This document shows, one piece after another, positions 43,206 to 49,183 of a DNA stretch of 64,000 nt; the stretch's first letter is position 1, and each line of letters opens with the position of its first letter. The position numbers and the translations under genes are program-made. The DNA is from Micromonospora terminaliae (GTDB lineage: Bacteria > Actinomycetota > Actinomycetes > Mycobacteriales > Micromonosporaceae). The stretch is taken from positions 5,660,001 through 5,724,000 of the forward strand of contig NZ_CP045309.1 in assembly GCF_009671205.1 (NCBI RefSeq), written 5' to 3'. Below the pieces are notes generated by a model. That model made no database searches. It was not told where the DNA came from and saw only the letters and a program-made list of their open reading frames with translations.

Positions 43206-43259
43206 GATCAAGGAGTTTGCGTCGGCTGCGGCACATCGGCCGACGCAAACTTCTTGATC
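43206..43259. terminator. 21-bp inverted repeat after clpB
   Basis: GATCAAGGAGTTTGCGTCGG (43206-43225, arm to 43226) pairs with 43239-43259 around a 12-base loop with a single G-U mismatch. It probably terminates clpB. The sequence GATCAAG(A/G)AGTTTGCGTC resembles palindromes I associate with Micromonospora intergenic regions. Confidence 0.7.
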
Positions 43260-43299: not shown

Positions 43300-43683
43300 A
43301 TGTTCGGGATCGGGGAGAAGGACCGGGAGTTGGACGCGGCCGTCGAGGAGCTTCGGCGGGCGGACACCCTCGCCTTCGGCGGGGTGGGTATCGCGGGGCA
43401 GATCCTGCCGGCGACCGAGGCGTACCGGCACGTGGAGCGGGCCCTGCGGGAGCATCCCGAGGCGGCCCGCAAGAAGGTCGACCGGCTGCTGAAGCACGGG
43501 TCGCCGGCCGGAAAGGCGTACGCGGCCACGCTGCTCGACACGGTCGACCCGGCGGCCGGCCGGGCCGCGTGGGAGCGGCTCCGCGACGACGACGGCGAGT
43601 TCACCACGTTCAGCGGCTGCCTCATGGACCGCGCCACCCTGCGCGAGTACGCCACCGAACGCCTCGCCGGCACCGCACGGTAG
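43300..43683 (+). CDS. Conserved protein of unknown function, 127 residues
   Basis: A soluble, alpha-helical protein: ELDAAVEELRRADTLAFGGVGIAGQILPATEAY, RKKVDRLLKHGSPAGKAYAATLLDTVDPAAG and FTTFSGCLMDRATLREYATERL. The GSPAGKAYAATLLD repeat-like helix pairs suggest a HEAT-like array, used for binding. I do not recognise it. It lies between clpB and the DUF4178 cluster and ends directly before the HAIR-like palindrome, so it may belong to neither operon. Confidence 0.65.
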   Translation: MFGIGEKDRELDAAVEELRRADTLAFGGVGIAGQILPATEAYRHVERALREHPEAARKKVDRLLKHGSPAGKAYAATLLDTVDPAAGRAAWERLRDDDGEFTTFSGCLMDRATLREYATERLAGTAR

Positions 43684-43700
43684 TTGAGCCGTCACTCAAC
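43683..43700. promoter_or_regulatory. HAIR-like palindrome with shortened spacer
   Basis: GTTGAG (43683-43688) and CTCAAC (43695-43700) enclose 6 bases; the arms are those of HAIR but the spacer is 3 bases too short for the usual HspR geometry. It lies between the 127-residue gene and the DUF4178 operon promoter. Confidence 0.4.
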
Positions 43701-43733
43701 GAACAACACTTCGGCGCGGGTGCGTCGGGTTGT

Positions 43734-43739
43734 TACCGT
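43734..43739 (+). promoter_or_regulatory. -10 element of the DUF4178 operon
   Basis: TACCGT with 8 bases to the ATG at 43748. This spacing equals the leaderless pattern seen across the window; the -35 is not recognisable. Confidence 0.45.
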
Positions 43740-43747
43740 CTCCGCCG

Positions 43748-43774
43748 ATGGACCTTGGGGGGAGACGGCCGTGA
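43748..43774 (+). CDS. Candidate leaderless 8-codon leader ORF (MDLGGRRP)
   Basis: ATG at 43748 lies where transcription from TACCGT should start. Its TGA (43772-43774) overlaps the GTG start of the DUF4178 gene (43771-43773). Translation of the leader would therefore terminate on the downstream start, coupling the two. It encodes two Arg and a Pro next to the stop. No homology can be judged for so short a peptide. Confidence 0.4.
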   Translation: MDLGGRRP

Positions 43775-44403
43775 ACGGTTCGCTGGCGTACGTGGTGACC
43801 ACGTTGGGCTGCCTGGTCGGGGTGGCCGGCGTCGTGATCGCCGTGGTCGCCCTGCGCAAGGCCCGGTCGGCGCCACGCCCGAAGGCCGCACCCGGTGACC
43901 CCTTCCGGGACCGGGACGCCGATGCGCTGCGCGGCGACCCCCGCGCCCTCAAGCCGGGCGACATCGTGGAGATCCGTCAGGTCCCCTACACCGTGCGCGG
44001 CTCGGTGCACCTGGTCGAGGGCGGCTGGAGCTGGGCGGAGCACCTGCTCGACGACGCCGGCGGCGTGAAGCGCTGGCTCTCCGTCGAGTCGGAGCCGGAC
44101 CTGGAGCTGGTGCTCTGGACCAGCGAGCCGTCGGCCACCGTCACCCCGGGCGCGCCGACCCTGGAGATCGCCGGGCGGCGCTACAACTGGGACGAGTCCG
44201 GCCAGGCCAAGTTCACCGCCACCGAGGGCACCGGCCTCGACCCGCGCGGCACCATGCGCTACCACGACTACCAGGCGCCCGGCGGCGCCCGGCTCTCGTT
44301 CGAGGCGTACGGGGAGGCCGGCTGGGAGGTGAACCTCGGCGAGCAGTTGCACCGGGCCGAGGTGATGATCTACCCGCAGGGCGGGCCGGAGAAGGTGGGC
44401 TAG
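43771..44403 (+). CDS. DUF4178 domain membrane protein
   Basis: 210 residues from the GTG at 43771 with GGGGGGAG just upstream. One N-terminal helix (LAYVVTTLGCLVGVAGVVIAVVAL) anchors it; the rest is cytoplasmic. The DUF4178 domain is at about 65-205: KPGDIVEIRQVPYTVRG, EGGWSWAEHLLDD, EPDLELVLW and YHDYQAPGGARLSFEAYGE. DUF4178 genes co-occur with spermidine synthase and DUF350 genes in actinobacteria and beyond. It is the first full gene of the cluster. Function unknown; an envelope-stress role is inferred from context. Confidence 0.87.
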   Translation: MNGSLAYVVTTLGCLVGVAGVVIAVVALRKARSAPRPKAAPGDPFRDRDADALRGDPRALKPGDIVEIRQVPYTVRGSVHLVEGGWSWAEHLLDDAGGVKRWLSVESEPDLELVLWTSEPSATVTPGAPTLEIAGRRYNWDESGQAKFTATEGTGLDPRGTMRYHDYQAPGGARLSFEAYGEAGWEVNLGEQLHRAEVMIYPQGGPEKVG

Positions 44404-44406
44404 AAC

Positions 44407-44898
44407 GTGCTCGTCGCCCTGGAGGCCCCGTACGTCGACACCCGCGCCGCCGATCTGAGCCTGGCCCTCGGTGGCCCCGAACGCCCCGCCCTGCACGTGC
44501 GCGAGCTGACGCTGCCGAGCGGGCTGCGGGTGCGGCTGCGCCTGCTCGGCGCCTCGCACCAGGTGGTCTGCGGCGACCTCACCGAGACGGTCGCCTGCCT
44601 GCCCGGCCGCCCTCCGCACCTGCCGGACGCCCTGCACGACGAGACCGCCGGCTACCGGTTCACCGCCACGGTGCTCCGGCCGGCGGGCGACGGCCTGCGC
44701 ACCCGGGTCGCCGCGCTCCGCGCCGACCTGGCCGACGACCCGTACGCGCTGGTCGGGGTCTTTCCCGGCGACGAGGACGCGGTCACCGCGCTCGCCGTCC
44801 GCCCGGACCCGCCGGACGGCTCGGTGGCCTGGCGCACCTGGCACGCGTATCCCCAGACGAACGAACTGGTCCTGACGGAGACGGTGGTGGCACTGTGA
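44407..44898 (+). CDS. DUF2617 family protein
   Basis: 163 residues from the GTG at 44407, only 3 bases after the DUF4178 stop. PYVDTRAADLSLALGG, LRVRLRLLGASHQVV and LVGVFPGDEDAVTALAV, then WRTWHAYPQTNELVLTETVV, are the DUF2617 profile. It is soluble with no catalytic motif that I can name. Its stop overlaps the DUF4247 GTG, showing tight coupling. Its constant company with DUF4178 and DUF4247 suggests a shared complex. Confidence 0.85.
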   Translation: MLVALEAPYVDTRAADLSLALGGPERPALHVRELTLPSGLRVRLRLLGASHQVVCGDLTETVACLPGRPPHLPDALHDETAGYRFTATVLRPAGDGLRTRVAALRADLADDPYALVGVFPGDEDAVTALAVRPDPPDGSVAWRTWHAYPQTNELVLTETVVAL

Positions 44899-45320
44899 CG
44901 TACCGACGGTGGTTCGTGGTCGGGATTGCGGTGGCCGTGGTGGGTGCCCTGGTCGCCGCCTTCGCGATCTTCTACGGCAACTTCTCGCCCCGCGGCTACG
45001 TGCAGGACCACTACACCCGGGCGGTCAGCCGGGACCTCGGCTCCGACGCGCTCGCGTACACCTCGACGCGGGCGCCGAGCCAGGTGGCGAAGGACGTCAC
45101 CGACGCCTGGCAGCCCGCCGACCAGTACGTCGACGGCAGCGGTGTCTACCTGCGCTACGACGACGACTCGGTGGTGATCCTGCCGCTCGCCGCCGGTTCG
45201 CTGATCCTGCTCGAACGGATGACCACCGCCTACCCCCGCTACCACCACGTCGTCGGCGGTGGCTGGGGCTGGGGCCGTGGCACCACCGTCCGGGGCGGCG
45301 GCCCCGGCGCCGGCAAGTAG
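44895..45320 (+). CDS. DUF4247 membrane-anchored protein
   Basis: 141 residues from the GTG at 44895. The N-terminal helix VVGIAVAVVGALVAAFAIFYG anchors an external domain: SPRGYVQDHYTRAVSRDLGSDALAYTSTRAPSQVAKDV, then SGVYLRYDDDSVVILPL, ending in a Gly/Trp/Arg-rich tail (GGGWGWGRGTTVRGGG). DUF4247 is a known companion of DUF4178 and DUF350. The external placement suggests a sensor or stabiliser for the membrane complex. It overlaps DUF2617 by 4 bases. Confidence 0.85.
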   Translation: MTYRRWFVVGIAVAVVGALVAAFAIFYGNFSPRGYVQDHYTRAVSRDLGSDALAYTSTRAPSQVAKDVTDAWQPADQYVDGSGVYLRYDDDSVVILPLAAGSLILLERMTTAYPRYHHVVGGGWGWGRGTTVRGGGPGAGK

Positions 45321-45350
45321 CCCGTCCGACCCCTCACCCTGGAGCCCCCT

Positions 45351-45773
45351 GTGCAGCACCTCGCCACCGATCTGCTGGTCACCCTCGCGTACGGGGTGGT
45401 CGGCGTCGTCCTGATGGGCATCGGGTACGCGCTGGTCGACCTGGCCACCCCGGGCCGGCTCAACCACCTGATCTGGCACGAGCGCAACCGGAACGCCGCC
45501 GTGCTGCTCGCCTCCAACCTGGTCGGCGTCGGCATCATCGTGGTCGCCGCGATCGTGGCGAGCGAGGACGACTTCGCGCTCGGCCTGGTCGGCGCGGCAG
45601 CATACGGGATCCTCGGCCTGGTGATCATGGCGGTGGCGTTCGTCCTGCTGGACGTGGCCACCCCGGGCAAGCTCGGTGAGCTGCTGGTCGACCCGGAGCC
45701 GCACCCGGCCGTGTGGGTCTCCGCCGTCGTGCACGTCGCCACCGGCGCGATCATCGCAGCCGCGATCAGCTGA
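45351..45773 (+). CDS. DUF350 four-helix membrane protein
   Basis: 140 residues made of two similar halves, each with a pair of helices: TLAYGVVGVVLMGIGYALVDLATPG and GLVIMAVAFVLLDVATPGK; the repeated xxVDLATPG/LDVATPG is the DUF350 mark. E. coli YjfL belongs to this family. It may act as a small membrane partner or channel for the cluster. It begins 30 bases after DUF4247 and its stop TGA shares a base with the next ATG. Confidence 0.88.
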   Translation: MQHLATDLLVTLAYGVVGVVLMGIGYALVDLATPGRLNHLIWHERNRNAAVLLASNLVGVGIIVVAAIVASEDDFALGLVGAAAYGILGLVIMAVAFVLLDVATPGKLGELLVDPEPHPAVWVSAVVHVATGAIIAAAIS

Positions 45774-46579
45774 TGGCGGCCCAGCGTTCCGACCTGACCG
45801 GGGCGAAGAGTCCGGTCAGCAGCGGGAAGAGCGCCACGGGCAAACAGATCCTCGGCGGGCTGGGCGTCGTGGCGGTGATCGGGCTGTGCGCGCTCGCCGG
45901 TGTGTTCGGCGCCAGCGACTCCGGCACCGACGTCCCCGCGCCCGTGACCGACGAGCGGGCCGCCACGGTCTCGATCCTCCAGCGCGCGGCCGACAGCCAG
46001 GGCATCTGCTACGGGTGGAAGCTCCTCGACTGGACCAACCCGACCGACGCCGGCTCGAACCTGGGCGAGGGGGTGGCGGTGAACACCGACCCGCGCTGCC
46101 CGCGCTACGTCGAGGTGGTGGCCAACATCCGCTACACCTCCGAGAGCAGCGAAGCGTCGGACTCGGCCGAGATCCACGTCGAGGGATCGTCCGACTTCGG
46201 CGACGCCGACCTCTCCGCGATGGCGAGCGGCCTCGCGCGGTTCGGGCTCGACGAGGACGCCTTCATCGACGACCCGGGCTGGGCGGTCACCCGCGCGGCG
46301 ACCACGCTTCCGCTGCTCGCCGCCGAGGCCGGGCTGGTGGAGCCCGCCCCCACCCCGACCGCCGCGCCGGCCGGTTCGCCCAGCCCGCTGCCCGCCGCGG
46401 GCAACGACTTCTGGCGGGACCGCTGGGGCGGCCTGCTCGCCGCGGTCGGGCTCTTCCTGCTCGCCGCGCTCCTGGTGGCCGTGGGCGTGGTGCAGCGCCG
46501 CAGGCAGCGTCGGGTGGCCGTGCCCGCGCAGCGTGCCGGGGCGTCGACCGCGCAGTCGCGTACCCGGGAGAAGGCGTGA
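45773..46579 (+). CDS. Bitopic membrane protein of the DUF4178/DUF350 cluster
   Basis: 268 residues. An N-terminal helix (ILGGLGVVAVIGLCALAGVFG) and a C-terminal helix (LLAAVGLFLLAALLVAVGVVQ) flank an external domain with ILQRAADSQGICYGWKLLDWTNP and DPRCPRYVEVVANIRYTSE, a two-Cys module that could form a disulfide. A Pro/Thr spacer lies before the second helix. I do not recognise the family beyond its position. It overlaps the spermidine-synthase-like gene (GTGA), so the two are made together. Confidence 0.75.
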   Translation: MAAQRSDLTGAKSPVSSGKSATGKQILGGLGVVAVIGLCALAGVFGASDSGTDVPAPVTDERAATVSILQRAADSQGICYGWKLLDWTNPTDAGSNLGEGVAVNTDPRCPRYVEVVANIRYTSESSEASDSAEIHVEGSSDFGDADLSAMASGLARFGLDEDAFIDDPGWAVTRAATTLPLLAAEAGLVEPAPTPTAAPAGSPSPLPAAGNDFWRDRWGGLLAAVGLFLLAALLVAVGVVQRRRQRRVAVPAQRAGASTAQSRTREKA

Positions 46580-48144
46580 CCGCCGAGGCGCCCGCACGGC
46601 CGCGGTGGCGCCCGGCCCGCGCGGCGGTCCTGCTCGCGGTCTTCGTGTGCGCGGCCTGCGGCCTGGTGTACGAGCTGGCGCTCGTCGCGCTCGGCAGCTA
46701 CCTGATCGGCGACGCGGTCGGCCAGGCGTCGATCGTGCTCGGCGTGATGGTCTTCGCCATGGGCGTGGGCGCGCTGGTCGCGAAGCCGTTCCAGTCCCGG
46801 GCGGCGGCCGCGTTCGCCGCGATCGAGCTGACCCTGGCCCTGCTCGGCGGGCTCTCCGTGCTCGGCCTCTACGCCGCGTTCGCCTGGCTCGACCTCTACG
46901 GGCCGGCGCTGGTCGGCACCGCCTTCGTACTGGGCCTGCTCATCGGCGCTGAGATCCCGCTGCTCATGGTGCTGCTGCAACGCATCCGCGCGCAGTCCGC
47001 CGGCAGCGCCGTGGCCGACCTCTTCGCCGCCGACTACGTCGGCGCGCTGCTCGGCGGGCTGGCCTTCCCGTTCCTGCTGATGCCGGTCTTCGGCCAGCTC
47101 AAGGGTGCCCTCGTGGTGGGCGCGGTCAACGCCGTCGCCGGTCTTGCGCTGGTCTGCACCGTCTTCCGGGCCGACCTCGGCCGCCGGGCCCGCGTCGCGC
47201 TCGGCGCCGGCGCCGCCGTGGTCGCCCTGTGCCTCGGGTACGCGTGGGTCACCGCACACGACTTCGAGGTGACCGCCCGGCAGCAGCTCTACCGCGACCC
47301 GGTGGTGCACGCCGAGCGCAGCCGCTACCAGGAGATCGTGCTGACCCGGTCGGTGCGGGAGGTCGGGCACACCGACACCGACCTGCGGCTGTTCCTCAAC
47401 GGCGACCTCCAGTTCAGCTCGATCGACGAGTACCGCTACCACGAGTCGCTGGTCCACCCGGCCATGCGCGGGCCGCACGGCAACGTGCTGGTGCTCGGCG
47501 CCGGCGACGGCCTGGCGCTGCGGGAGATCCTCAAGTACCCGGACGTGCGCCAGGTGACCCTGGTCGACCTCGACCCGGCCGTGGTGCGGCTGGCCCGCTC
47601 CGAGCCGCAGCTGCGGGATCTCAACCACCACTCGCTCGCCGACCCCCGGGTGCGGGTGCTCAACGTCGACGCGTTCGGCTGGCTGCGCTCCGCCACGGAA
47701 CGTTTCGACGTGGTCGTCGCCGACCTGCCCGACCCGGACGAGACGGCCACCGCCAAGCTCTACACGGTCGAGTTCTACGCGCTGATCCGGCCGGTGCTCG
47801 CCCCCGGTGGGCGGCTCGTGGTGCAGTCCGGCTCGCCGTACTTCGCGCCGCGGTCGTACTGGTCGATCGAGCGGTCGATCCGGGAGGCGGGCTTCGCCAC
47901 CGTGCCGTACCACGTGGACGTGCCGAGCTTCGGTGACTGGGGTTTCGTGCTCGCCGCCCCGGGTGCGACGCCGCCCGCGCTGGGGCTGCCCGCCGACGCG
48001 CCGCCGCTGCGCTTCCTCACCCCGTCGGTGCTCGCCGCGGCGGCCACCTTCCCGGCCGACCGGGCGCGCGTCGACGTGCCCGCCTCCACGTTGCTGCAGC
48101 CCAGGGTGCTGGAGTACGCCCGCGCGGAGTGGCGCGGCTACTAG
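46576..48144 (+). CDS. Membrane-embedded spermidine-synthase-like enzyme (polyamine aminopropyltransferase fold)
   Basis: 522 residues. The first 215 contain about seven hydrophobic helices with CGLVYELALVALGSYLIGDA and GAEIPLLMVLLQRI, as in membrane-tethered SpeE homologues. The AdoMet-type domain runs from about 230: RYQEIVL, LRLFLNGDLQFSSIDEYRYHESL, VLVLGAGDGLALREI (about 305), LVDLDP (331) and VVADLPDPDE (383). The GAGDG glycine loop and the acidic residues that bind decarboxylated AdoMet are kept. Whether it makes spermidine, another aminopropyl compound or senses polyamines is open. It ends the tight operon. Confidence 0.88.
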   Translation: MTAEAPARPRWRPARAAVLLAVFVCAACGLVYELALVALGSYLIGDAVGQASIVLGVMVFAMGVGALVAKPFQSRAAAAFAAIELTLALLGGLSVLGLYAAFAWLDLYGPALVGTAFVLGLLIGAEIPLLMVLLQRIRAQSAGSAVADLFAADYVGALLGGLAFPFLLMPVFGQLKGALVVGAVNAVAGLALVCTVFRADLGRRARVALGAGAAVVALCLGYAWVTAHDFEVTARQQLYRDPVVHAERSRYQEIVLTRSVREVGHTDTDLRLFLNGDLQFSSIDEYRYHESLVHPAMRGPHGNVLVLGAGDGLALREILKYPDVRQVTLVDLDPAVVRLARSEPQLRDLNHHSLADPRVRVLNVDAFGWLRSATERFDVVVADLPDPDETATAKLYTVEFYALIRPVLAPGGRLVVQSGSPYFAPRSYWSIERSIREAGFATVPYHVDVPSFGDWGFVLAAPGATPPALGLPADAPPLRFLTPSVLAAAATFPADRARVDVPASTLLQPRVLEYARAEWRGY

Positions 48145-48154
48145 CGTCGGAACC

Positions 48155-49183
48155 ATGCCCGCCCGTCCGTCCCGCTGGTCGCGACCGCCCCGGGCACTGG
48201 AGGCGCCGTCGTACCTTCAGGCGTTCGTGCTGTCCGGGGTGGTGACCGTGCTGGTCACCCGGGCGTACCTCCAGGCGACCGGGTTCCCGCAGCTCGGCGG
48301 CGGCGGGCTGCACATCGCGCACGTGCTCTGGGGCGGTCTGCTGATGACCGCGGGCCTGGGGGTGGGGCTGGTCTTCCTCGGCAGCGTGGCGCGCATCCTC
48401 GGGGCGATCCTGGGCGGGATGGGCTTCGGACTGTTCATCGACGAGGTCGGCAAGTTCGTCACCGCGGGCACGGACTACTTCTACGCACCGGCCGCCAGCA
48501 TCATCTACGTGGCGTTCGCCCTGCTGGTCGTGCTCACCCAGGCGCTGCGCGGCCGGACCCGGCTGTCCGGGCCGGAGCGCACGGCGAACGCGCTGTACAC
48601 CATCGTCGGCGGTCTCACCACCGGCCTCACGGCCCGGCGCCGGGCGGCCGTGCTGCGGCTGGTCCAGGGCTGCGGGCCGGAGGTGGAGGAGGCGGTCGTC
48701 CGGCTGCTCGACGTGGTGCCCCGGCGGGAGACGCCCCCGTTCCGGTTCTGGCACCGCTGGCTCCGCCTGGCCCGCCGCGGCCTGGTCTATGTGGCCACGC
48801 ACCGGTGGGTGGTGTCCCTGGTGGTGCTCTACGTGATCGGCGAGCCGTTCGTCGTGGTGCTGCGGGTGCTGCTCGACGCGATCACCGGCCAGCTGCCCGA
48901 CCAGGACGAATGGGGTGCGCTGCTCGGGGTCTCGGTCTCCGCGCTCATCACCGCGGTGCTGAGCATCCGCGGCGCCCTGCTGCTGCCCAGCGACCAGACG
49001 CGGGCCTTCCGGCTGTTCAAGCTCGCGCTCCTCGTGGACCTGCTGTTCGGGCAGATCTTCAGCTTCACGGTCAACCAGTTCGGCGCGGTCTTCGCGCTCG
49101 GCGTGGACCTCTTCCTGCTCGCGGTGGTGACGGCCGAGTACCGCCGGCTGCAGCGGGAGGCCGGGGAGGAGCCGACGAGCTGA
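48155..49183 (+). CDS. Polytopic membrane protein of unknown function
   Basis: 342 residues, about eight hydrophobic segments, starting with YLQAFVLSGVVTVLVTRAYL; a conserved-looking stretch GLHIAHVLWGGLLMTAGLGV, ILGGMGFGLFIDEVGKFVT contains a His and acidic residues within or near helices. TAGCGT at 48142-48147 overlaps the upstream stop and is 7 bases before the ATG at 48155, so it has its own leaderless promoter but is likely read by the operon too. I do not recognise its family. Confidence 0.78.
   Translation: MPARPSRWSRPPRALEAPSYLQAFVLSGVVTVLVTRAYLQATGFPQLGGGGLHIAHVLWGGLLMTAGLGVGLVFLGSVARILGAILGGMGFGLFIDEVGKFVTAGTDYFYAPAASIIYVAFALLVVLTQALRGRTRLSGPERTANALYTIVGGLTTGLTARRRAAVLRLVQGCGPEVEEAVVRLLDVVPRRETPPFRFWHRWLRLARRGLVYVATHRWVVSLVVLYVIGEPFVVVLRVLLDAITGQLPDQDEWGALLGVSVSALITAVLSIRGALLLPSDQTRAFRLFKLALLVDLLFGQIFSFTVNQFGAVFALGVDLFLLAVVTAEYRRLQREAGEEPTS

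Follow-up and report, generated by a model that had tools for sequence, protein, structure and literature searches.

Described systems and the Micromonospora terminaliae operon

Operons built around PspA that include membrane-fused spermine-synthase-like proteins, DUF350 and DUF4178, and a variant without PspA that carries DUF4247 and DUF2617, have been described by Ravi et al. (2024; PMC11237479). In the sections of that paper on these operons, the systems are proposed to monitor polyamines or the aminopropylation of other substrates, DUF2617 is a predicted enzyme whose conserved residues are two His, one Asp and one Glu, no reaction being given there, and CCP45394 and CCP45395 serve as examples of the variant (PMC11237479). 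Here we analysed a six-gene operon of the actinobacterium Micromonospora terminaliae, which encodes, in this order on the forward strand, DUF4178, DUF2617, DUF4247 and DUF350 proteins, a protein designated F, and a membrane-embedded aminopropyltransferase-like enzyme, membrane SpeE (43771–48144 of the window, that is, of the whole stretch of 64,000 nucleotides analysed, which is part of contig 1 of a 100% complete genome of 6.74 Mb). Gene sets of this kind have been described before; the donor problem that it poses and the answer that DUF2617 may give to it are new here. CCP45394 and CCP45395 are presumably Mycobacterium tuberculosis proteins. The features of the operon are as follows.

43771–44403, + strand: DUF4178 protein of 210 residues (PF13785, 124.7 bits), N-terminal helix at residues 8–26
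44407–44898, + strand: soluble DUF2617 protein of 163 residues, candidate S-adenosylmethionine (AdoMet) decarboxylase (PF10936, 168.5 bits; genome patterns; residues 72–163 compared with a SpeD profile)
44554–44559, + strand: Ser50-His51 codons of DUF2617 (invariant in 225/225 sequences; position checked)
44596–44598, + strand: Cys64 codon of DUF2617 (Cys in 215, Tyr in 10 of 225)
44842–44844, + strand: His146 codon of DUF2617 (223/225, 2 gaps; aligned on the His of SpeD HTWPE)
44895–45320, + strand: DUF4247 protein of 141 residues (PF14042, 73.5 bits), N-terminal anchor with helix at residues 7–25
45351–45773, + strand: DUF350 membrane protein of 140 residues (PF03994, 94.2 bits)
45773–46579, + strand: F, 268 residues, a helix at each end and Cys79 and Cys109 between them
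46576–48144, + strand: membrane SpeE, a multi-helix N-terminal part fused to an aminopropyltransferase domain (Spermine_synth PF01564, 110.8 bits; PRK03612)

The scores of the five named families lie far above their Pfam cut-offs (22–27 bits), and F has no family match in either Pfam or NCBIfam. Re-reading of the junction letters gave, in gene order, a 3-base gap, a 4-base overlap, a 30-base gap, a 1-base overlap and a 4-base overlap, so coordinates, junctions and family scores all bear out the compact six-gene operon of the initial annotation. Aminopropyltransferases take their aminopropyl group from decarboxylated AdoMet, which is made by AdoMet decarboxylase. Section 19 of PMC1282579 states the same requirement, and the corresponding gap in M. 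tuberculosis was noted in that 2005 paper with the words 'lack clearly identifiable homologue'. No AdoMet decarboxylase gene was found within the operon by Pfam, and a profile search of the complete host genome gave no match to PF02675 (SpeD), the eukaryotic type, PF01536, not having been searched; the same PF02675 search matched 8/14 control genomes. Besides the operon SpeE, the host has just two Spermine_synth matches, both marginal at 25 bits, and because the genome is without PF02675, its one strong SpeE has no known source of donor. Many actinobacteria likewise have an aminopropyltransferase gene and no recognised donor-making enzyme. PF02675 was present in 13/121 genomes of a sample of the host's family.

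We propose that DUF2617 probably works like an AdoMet decarboxylase, which would make the operon a membrane aminopropylation unit with its own donor maker. Genome patterns carry most of the weight of this proposal, followed by a profile match that is weak but controlled and then by invariant residues. Membrane-fused or major facilitator superfamily-fused spermidine-synthase-like proteins accompanied by SpeD were reportedly described by Li et al. in 2019, with a suggested role beyond free polyamine synthesis. The present SpeE is like them in being membrane-fused and in needing a donor enzyme, whereas its partner is DUF2617 instead of an ordinary SpeD. The operon shares DUF2617, DUF4247, DUF350 and a polyamine-type enzyme with the PspA-less variant as presented by Ravi et al. 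(PMC11237479), and it is partly alike in that DUF4178 and a membrane-fused spermine-synthase-like protein occur there in a sister operon group. However, the operon of that variant includes an AdoMet decarboxylase gene, and F is an extra gene here. The initial annotation had called the locus a candidate polyamine/membrane system; operon, membrane character and enzyme type hold, though such a system had already been proposed in print (PMC11237479). Apart from Ravi et al., a full-text search for DUF2617 gave two papers, a Streptomyces synteny survey that includes the name in a list and a serum proteomics study in which one such protein appears. No literature proposing DUF2617 or another alternative AdoMet decarboxylase for actinobacteria was found in a full-text search that is thin on subscription journals.

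Genome patterns of DUF2617, membrane SpeE and SpeD

Membrane SpeE matched the NCBIfam family PRK03612 ('polyamine aminopropyltransferase') with a score of 694.6 bits (cut-off 472), and its catalytic part aligned with aminopropyltransferases of solved structure in PDB (best E 6e-34). Asp311, Asp383 and Asp386, aligned to the solved enzymes, were invariant in 24/24 sequences; in terms of motifs, the residues kept in all 24 comprise the GxGDG Asp, the YHE Tyr and both Asp of DxPD, which we take to have donor-side and catalytic roles. The PRK03612 score, the fused helices and the kept motifs support the membrane-embedded aminopropyltransferase-like enzyme first read from the DNA, and the loss of donor binding that had been considered as a contrary outcome is not seen, as far as the sequence tells. 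At one locus (L039, genome G143), the membrane SpeE match carries one in-frame TGA.

Neighbourhoods were surveyed in the best 80 of more than 586 loci, all actinobacterial by title, and in 40 loci from samples of the host's family and phylum. The larger set contained 47 loci with DUF350, membrane SpeE and at least two of DUF4178, DUF2617, DUF4247 and F, 28 loci with DUF2617 and SpeE only, all titled Streptomyces, and five with other or contig-edge arrangements. The order DUF4178-DUF2617-DUF4247-DUF350-SpeE was found in 14 of the 40 loci, in 11 more with F before SpeE and in two with F before DUF350, the remainder being without DUF4178 (3), without DUF2617 (2) or reduced to DUF2617-SpeE (8). 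The grouping is far beyond chance, and the genes stay together across many actinobacterial families, in line with the co-occurrence stated in the initial annotation, which had named their parting outside close relatives as a contrary outcome. DUF2617 is the steadiest neighbour of SpeE because it is kept in 68/80 loci (DUF350 in 50/80) and is the sole remaining operon partner in 28.

Co-occurrence in whole genomes was counted in the family and phylum samples, which overlap (the coordinates of both SpeD and SpeE are identical in G170 and G441, probably the same genome). In the family sample, after 9/70 genomes with partial membrane SpeE matches (44.7–56 bits) had been dropped, DUF2617 was present in 61/61 genomes with a full-length or long split membrane SpeE and in 0/60 others. 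In the phylum sample, 11/46 genomes with partial or other matches (41–58.4 bits; two with SpeD) were dropped, leaving 18 with membrane SpeE and 17 with 'soluble' SpeE, our label for a match to the catalytic region only. DUF2617 occurred in 16/18 of the former and, one match below the cut-off (G264) being dropped, in 0/278 other genomes, and the two exceptions (G170 and G354) both have SpeD. PF02675 accompanied 15/17 soluble SpeE genomes versus 4/18 membrane SpeE genomes.

The relation to SpeD was followed in 50 of the genomes of the 80 loci, the 30 left out being mostly Streptomyces. DUF2617 was present genome-wide in 41 of them and SpeD in exactly the other nine (Nocardia, 5; Saccharopolyspora, 2; Actinopolyspora, 1; an Acidimicrobiales metagenome-assembled genome, MAG, 1), a complementarity with a Fisher p of 4e-10 if the genomes were independent, which they are not. 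The SpeE tree contains three DUF2617/SpeD switches, all in the expected direction. Among ten control genomes with Spermine_synth at E ≤ 1e-10, eight had PF02675 without DUF2617, and the remaining two, Corynebacterium glutamicum and the archaeon Haloferax volcanii, had DUF2617 without PF02675, the archaeal point coming from the control tallies alone. PRK03612 matched 10/14 controls, and because it exceeded its cut-off in one only, the SpeE of H. volcanii may be other than the membrane type. The copy numbers of DUF2617 and SpeE agreed (2 and 2) in G248, G427, G429 and G432 and differed in G434 (2 and 1) and in G422 and G456 (1 and 2). DUF2617 had no match at E ≤ 0.01 in a plasmid collection.

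Several genome observations weigh against a donor-making role of DUF2617. Three switches give a sign-test p of 0.25 and cannot reach significance, and one of them (the MAG) lies on a long branch of unsure place in the SpeE tree. In six of the nine SpeD genomes, SpeD is fused to or stands beside a second SpeE, which it may serve. Of the 75 genomes with DUF2617 in the family and phylum samples, eight also had a PF02675 match; two of these copies have Tyr for the catalytic Cys (G143, G313) and two lack the motif (G086, G095), and four look intact (G046, G062, G081, G097). SpeD is no rarer in family-sample genomes with DUF2617 (6/61) than in those without it (7/60, these 60 also being without membrane SpeE). 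The SpeD copies that co-occur with DUF2617 may do other work, because SpeD homologues decarboxylating ornithine or arginine, actinobacterial ones included, are described as common in the relevant part of PMC10407285.

The association of SpeD with a second SpeE would also suit the idea, which we consider improbable, that AdoMet serves membrane SpeE directly as the donor of an aminocarboxypropyl or methyl group, no decarboxylase being needed, with DUF2617 acting on the acceptor or product and SpeD elsewhere serving soluble SpeE only; the usual donor having no known source in the host genome agrees with it. Such direct use is less likely because three Nocardia genomes (G436, G441, G443) have SpeD, no DUF2617 and, at E ≤ 1e-10, the membrane SpeE as their only SpeE. 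Furthermore, membrane SpeE keeps the catalytic Asp pair and the GxGDG Asp as in donor-using aminopropyltransferases, if these residues have the roles that we presume. Still more improbable is that another unrecognised decarboxylase, or one of the PF01536 type, makes the donor elsewhere in the genome and that DUF2617 is unrelated to it. The absence of SpeD does rest on PF02675 only, but such an enzyme would leave unexplained why DUF2617 tracks membrane SpeE and complements SpeD.

Two kinds of unusual SpeD locus were met in the course of the survey. In L209 and L210 (G313 and G143; one genus, probably Streptomyces), a SpeD-like protein with SASH and HTWPE has Tyr where the catalytic Cys would stand, a substitution also seen in 10/225 DUF2617 proteins. 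In L183, L184 and L182 (two Nocardia and the Acidimicrobiales MAG), a single open frame of 396–413 residues encodes both SpeD and a divergent SpeE.

Weak resemblance of DUF2617 to SpeD

A profile built from 28 SpeD sequences was compared with DUF2617 by hhalign. The C-terminal half of DUF2617 (residues 72–163) scored 28.2 (E 1.5e-4 for one target), and the reversed control scored 13.7. Further alignments, 58 in number, were built from the other frames in these loci; the highest score among them, 21.8, belonged to DUF2617 itself, aligned independently, and the remaining 57 reached at most 19.0. With an alignment of 225 DUF2617 sequences, 120 of which are the best 120 hits of one search and mostly Streptomyces where named, the C-half scored 26.9 against SpeD; the best of 57 unrelated families used as targets reached 16.9, and 100 column-shuffled SpeD profiles gave at best 20.3. 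In the hhalign layout, helix lies on helix, the strand of DAVT127 lies on the SpeD GVT/S strand and H146xYP lies on HTWP, placing His146 on the processing His of SpeD. Ser50, His51, Glu60, Pro73, Thr127 and Pro149 were invariant in 225/225 sequences, and Trp142, like His146, was present in 223/225 with two gaps.

In the N-terminal half, the stretch LGAS50H51...E60TVAC64 resembles the SESH...D..TC of SpeD when placed by eye. The catalytic Cys of the eukaryotic AdoMet decarboxylase lies in the N-half of that enzyme. According to section 19 of PMC1282579, only the C-half of the eukaryotic enzyme aligns readily with prokaryotic SpeD, its pyruvoyl Ser lying in the N-half and its processing His in the C-half. 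The putative distribution of Ser, Cys and His over the two halves of DUF2617 agrees with this arrangement. DUF2617 is comparable to SpeD classes 1 and 2 (PF02675 and PF01536) in its genomic role beside SpeE, in the weak profile match of its C-half and in the putatively comparable places of its Ser-His, Cys and His, but it differs from them in its length of 163 residues, its PF02675-negative status, an N-half that is not alignable and the usual lack of Glu after HxYP.

The profile and structure comparisons also yielded points that count against kinship. The match of the C-half to SpeD is weak (probability 52%, 9% identity over 55 columns), and the independently built DUF2617 alignment scored just its 21.8. 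Profile comparison gave no match for the N-half, where Ser50 and Cys64 lie, so these two residues are equated with those of SpeD by eye only. Cys64 is Tyr in 10 of the 225 sequences, and the Glu that follows HTWP is mostly Gln in DUF2617. Pfam-A assigned PF02675 to 0/33 DUF2617 members at E ≤ 10, and because that profile fails to recognise it, DUF2617 is, as its sequences stand, kept outside the SpeD family. Fold searches with confident models of the full protein and the C-half found no match at E ≤ 0.001; solved AdoMet decarboxylases were not among the 50 best fold matches listed, which excludes nothing. The fold matches being without significance, structure was dropped as proof of kinship. 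The model has one predicted helix of length, the two halves did not match each other by profile, and two matches of the DUF2617 profile to PDB sequences were rejected as chance hits. In L076 (G003), DUF2617 has an insertion between Ser50-His51 and Glu60 within one open frame of 407 codons.

It is conceivable, though unlikely, that DUF2617 has no catalytic role and assists membrane SpeE as a subunit, chaperone or sensor. Its likeness to SpeD, if real, would then be that of a dead AdoMet decarboxylase-like domain, with the donor coming from elsewhere and the exclusion of SpeD being an accident of a few lineages. Human spermine synthase joins an AdoMet decarboxylase-like N-domain to its aminopropyltransferase domain, and the former is catalytically dead and structurally needed according to the part of PMC12803844 that describes it. 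The DUF2617 fold match to that domain is level with those to unrelated folds. The small number of switches, no activity being known for DUF2617 and the failure of PF02675 to recognise it would all fit a non-catalytic partner. However, catalytic-looking residues are invariant in 225/225 sequences, and such a partner leaves unexplained that SpeD appears exactly where DUF2617 is lost.

Membrane partners and the proposed pathway

In a crude hydropathy scan, DUF4178 and DUF4247 each showed a single helix and F showed two; DUF350 and the N-terminal half of SpeE contained several, and DUF2617 had none. The soluble part of DUF4178 is probably cytoplasmic, and DUF4247 beyond its anchor probably lies outside. 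The DUF4178 gene more likely starts at GTG 43771, behind GGGGGGAG, than at the TTG near 43684 chosen initially, because the alignment with its closest homologues begins at the GTG. In F, Cys79 and Cys109 were unchanged in 13/13 aligned homologues, and the invariant pair would fit a disulfide, as surmised when F was first described as a two-helix protein. F is a facultative member, found in 13/40 and 10/80 loci. Beyond Micromonosporaceae, the corresponding operons of Thermomonospora, Actinomadura, Saccharopolyspora, Actinopolyspora and Patulibacter contain profile matches to F, there placed on the opposite side of DUF350 (L065, L115, L116, L123, L124 and L149).

Upstream of the operon, 43300–43683 encodes a 127-residue protein without a Pfam family, which recurs in 2/40 loci searched (L076 and L092). 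Between a ClpB/ClpC-like gene and this small gene, an inverted repeat (43206–43226 and 43239–43259; 21-base arms, one mismatch, 12 bases between) resembles a terminator hairpin without a T run. Downstream, a 342-residue multi-helix protein without a Pfam family (48155–49183) begins 10 bases past SpeE and may share its transcript; its homologues were found at two loci only (L099 and L076).

Considering these results, we propose the following scenario. DUF2617 would decarboxylate S-adenosylmethionine, Ser50 serving as the putative pyruvoyl precursor, Cys64 as the putative proton donor in the role of the N-half Cys of the eukaryotic enzyme and His146 possibly in the role of the C-half processing His of that two-half enzyme. 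Membrane SpeE would transfer the aminopropyl group from decarboxylated AdoMet to an acceptor, and DUF4178, DUF350, DUF4247 and F may form or guide a membrane complex. The least certain part concerns the acceptor, which would belong to the membrane or envelope and would not be free putrescine; a membrane-bound acceptor is plausible because SpeE has fused helices and membrane-protein neighbours. The initial suggestion of a complex that makes, senses or moves an aminopropyl compound was too loose, since the evidence points to a donor-plus-transferase pair with DUF2617 as the donor maker; its description of DUF2617 as a soluble protein agrees with the hydropathy scan and is extended by this proposed role.

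More tentatively, DUF2617 might represent a further, miniature two-half class of AdoMet decarboxylase in actinobacteria and at least one haloarchaeon, feeding a membrane aminopropyltransferase that acts on a lipid or envelope acceptor and not on free polyamine, and might be the missing SpeD of many actinobacteria that have SpeE without SpeD. If the proposal is true, it assigns a reaction to a family of unknown function, makes the operon complete as a unit of donor maker and transferase, and allows the acceptor to be sought in a defined experiment.

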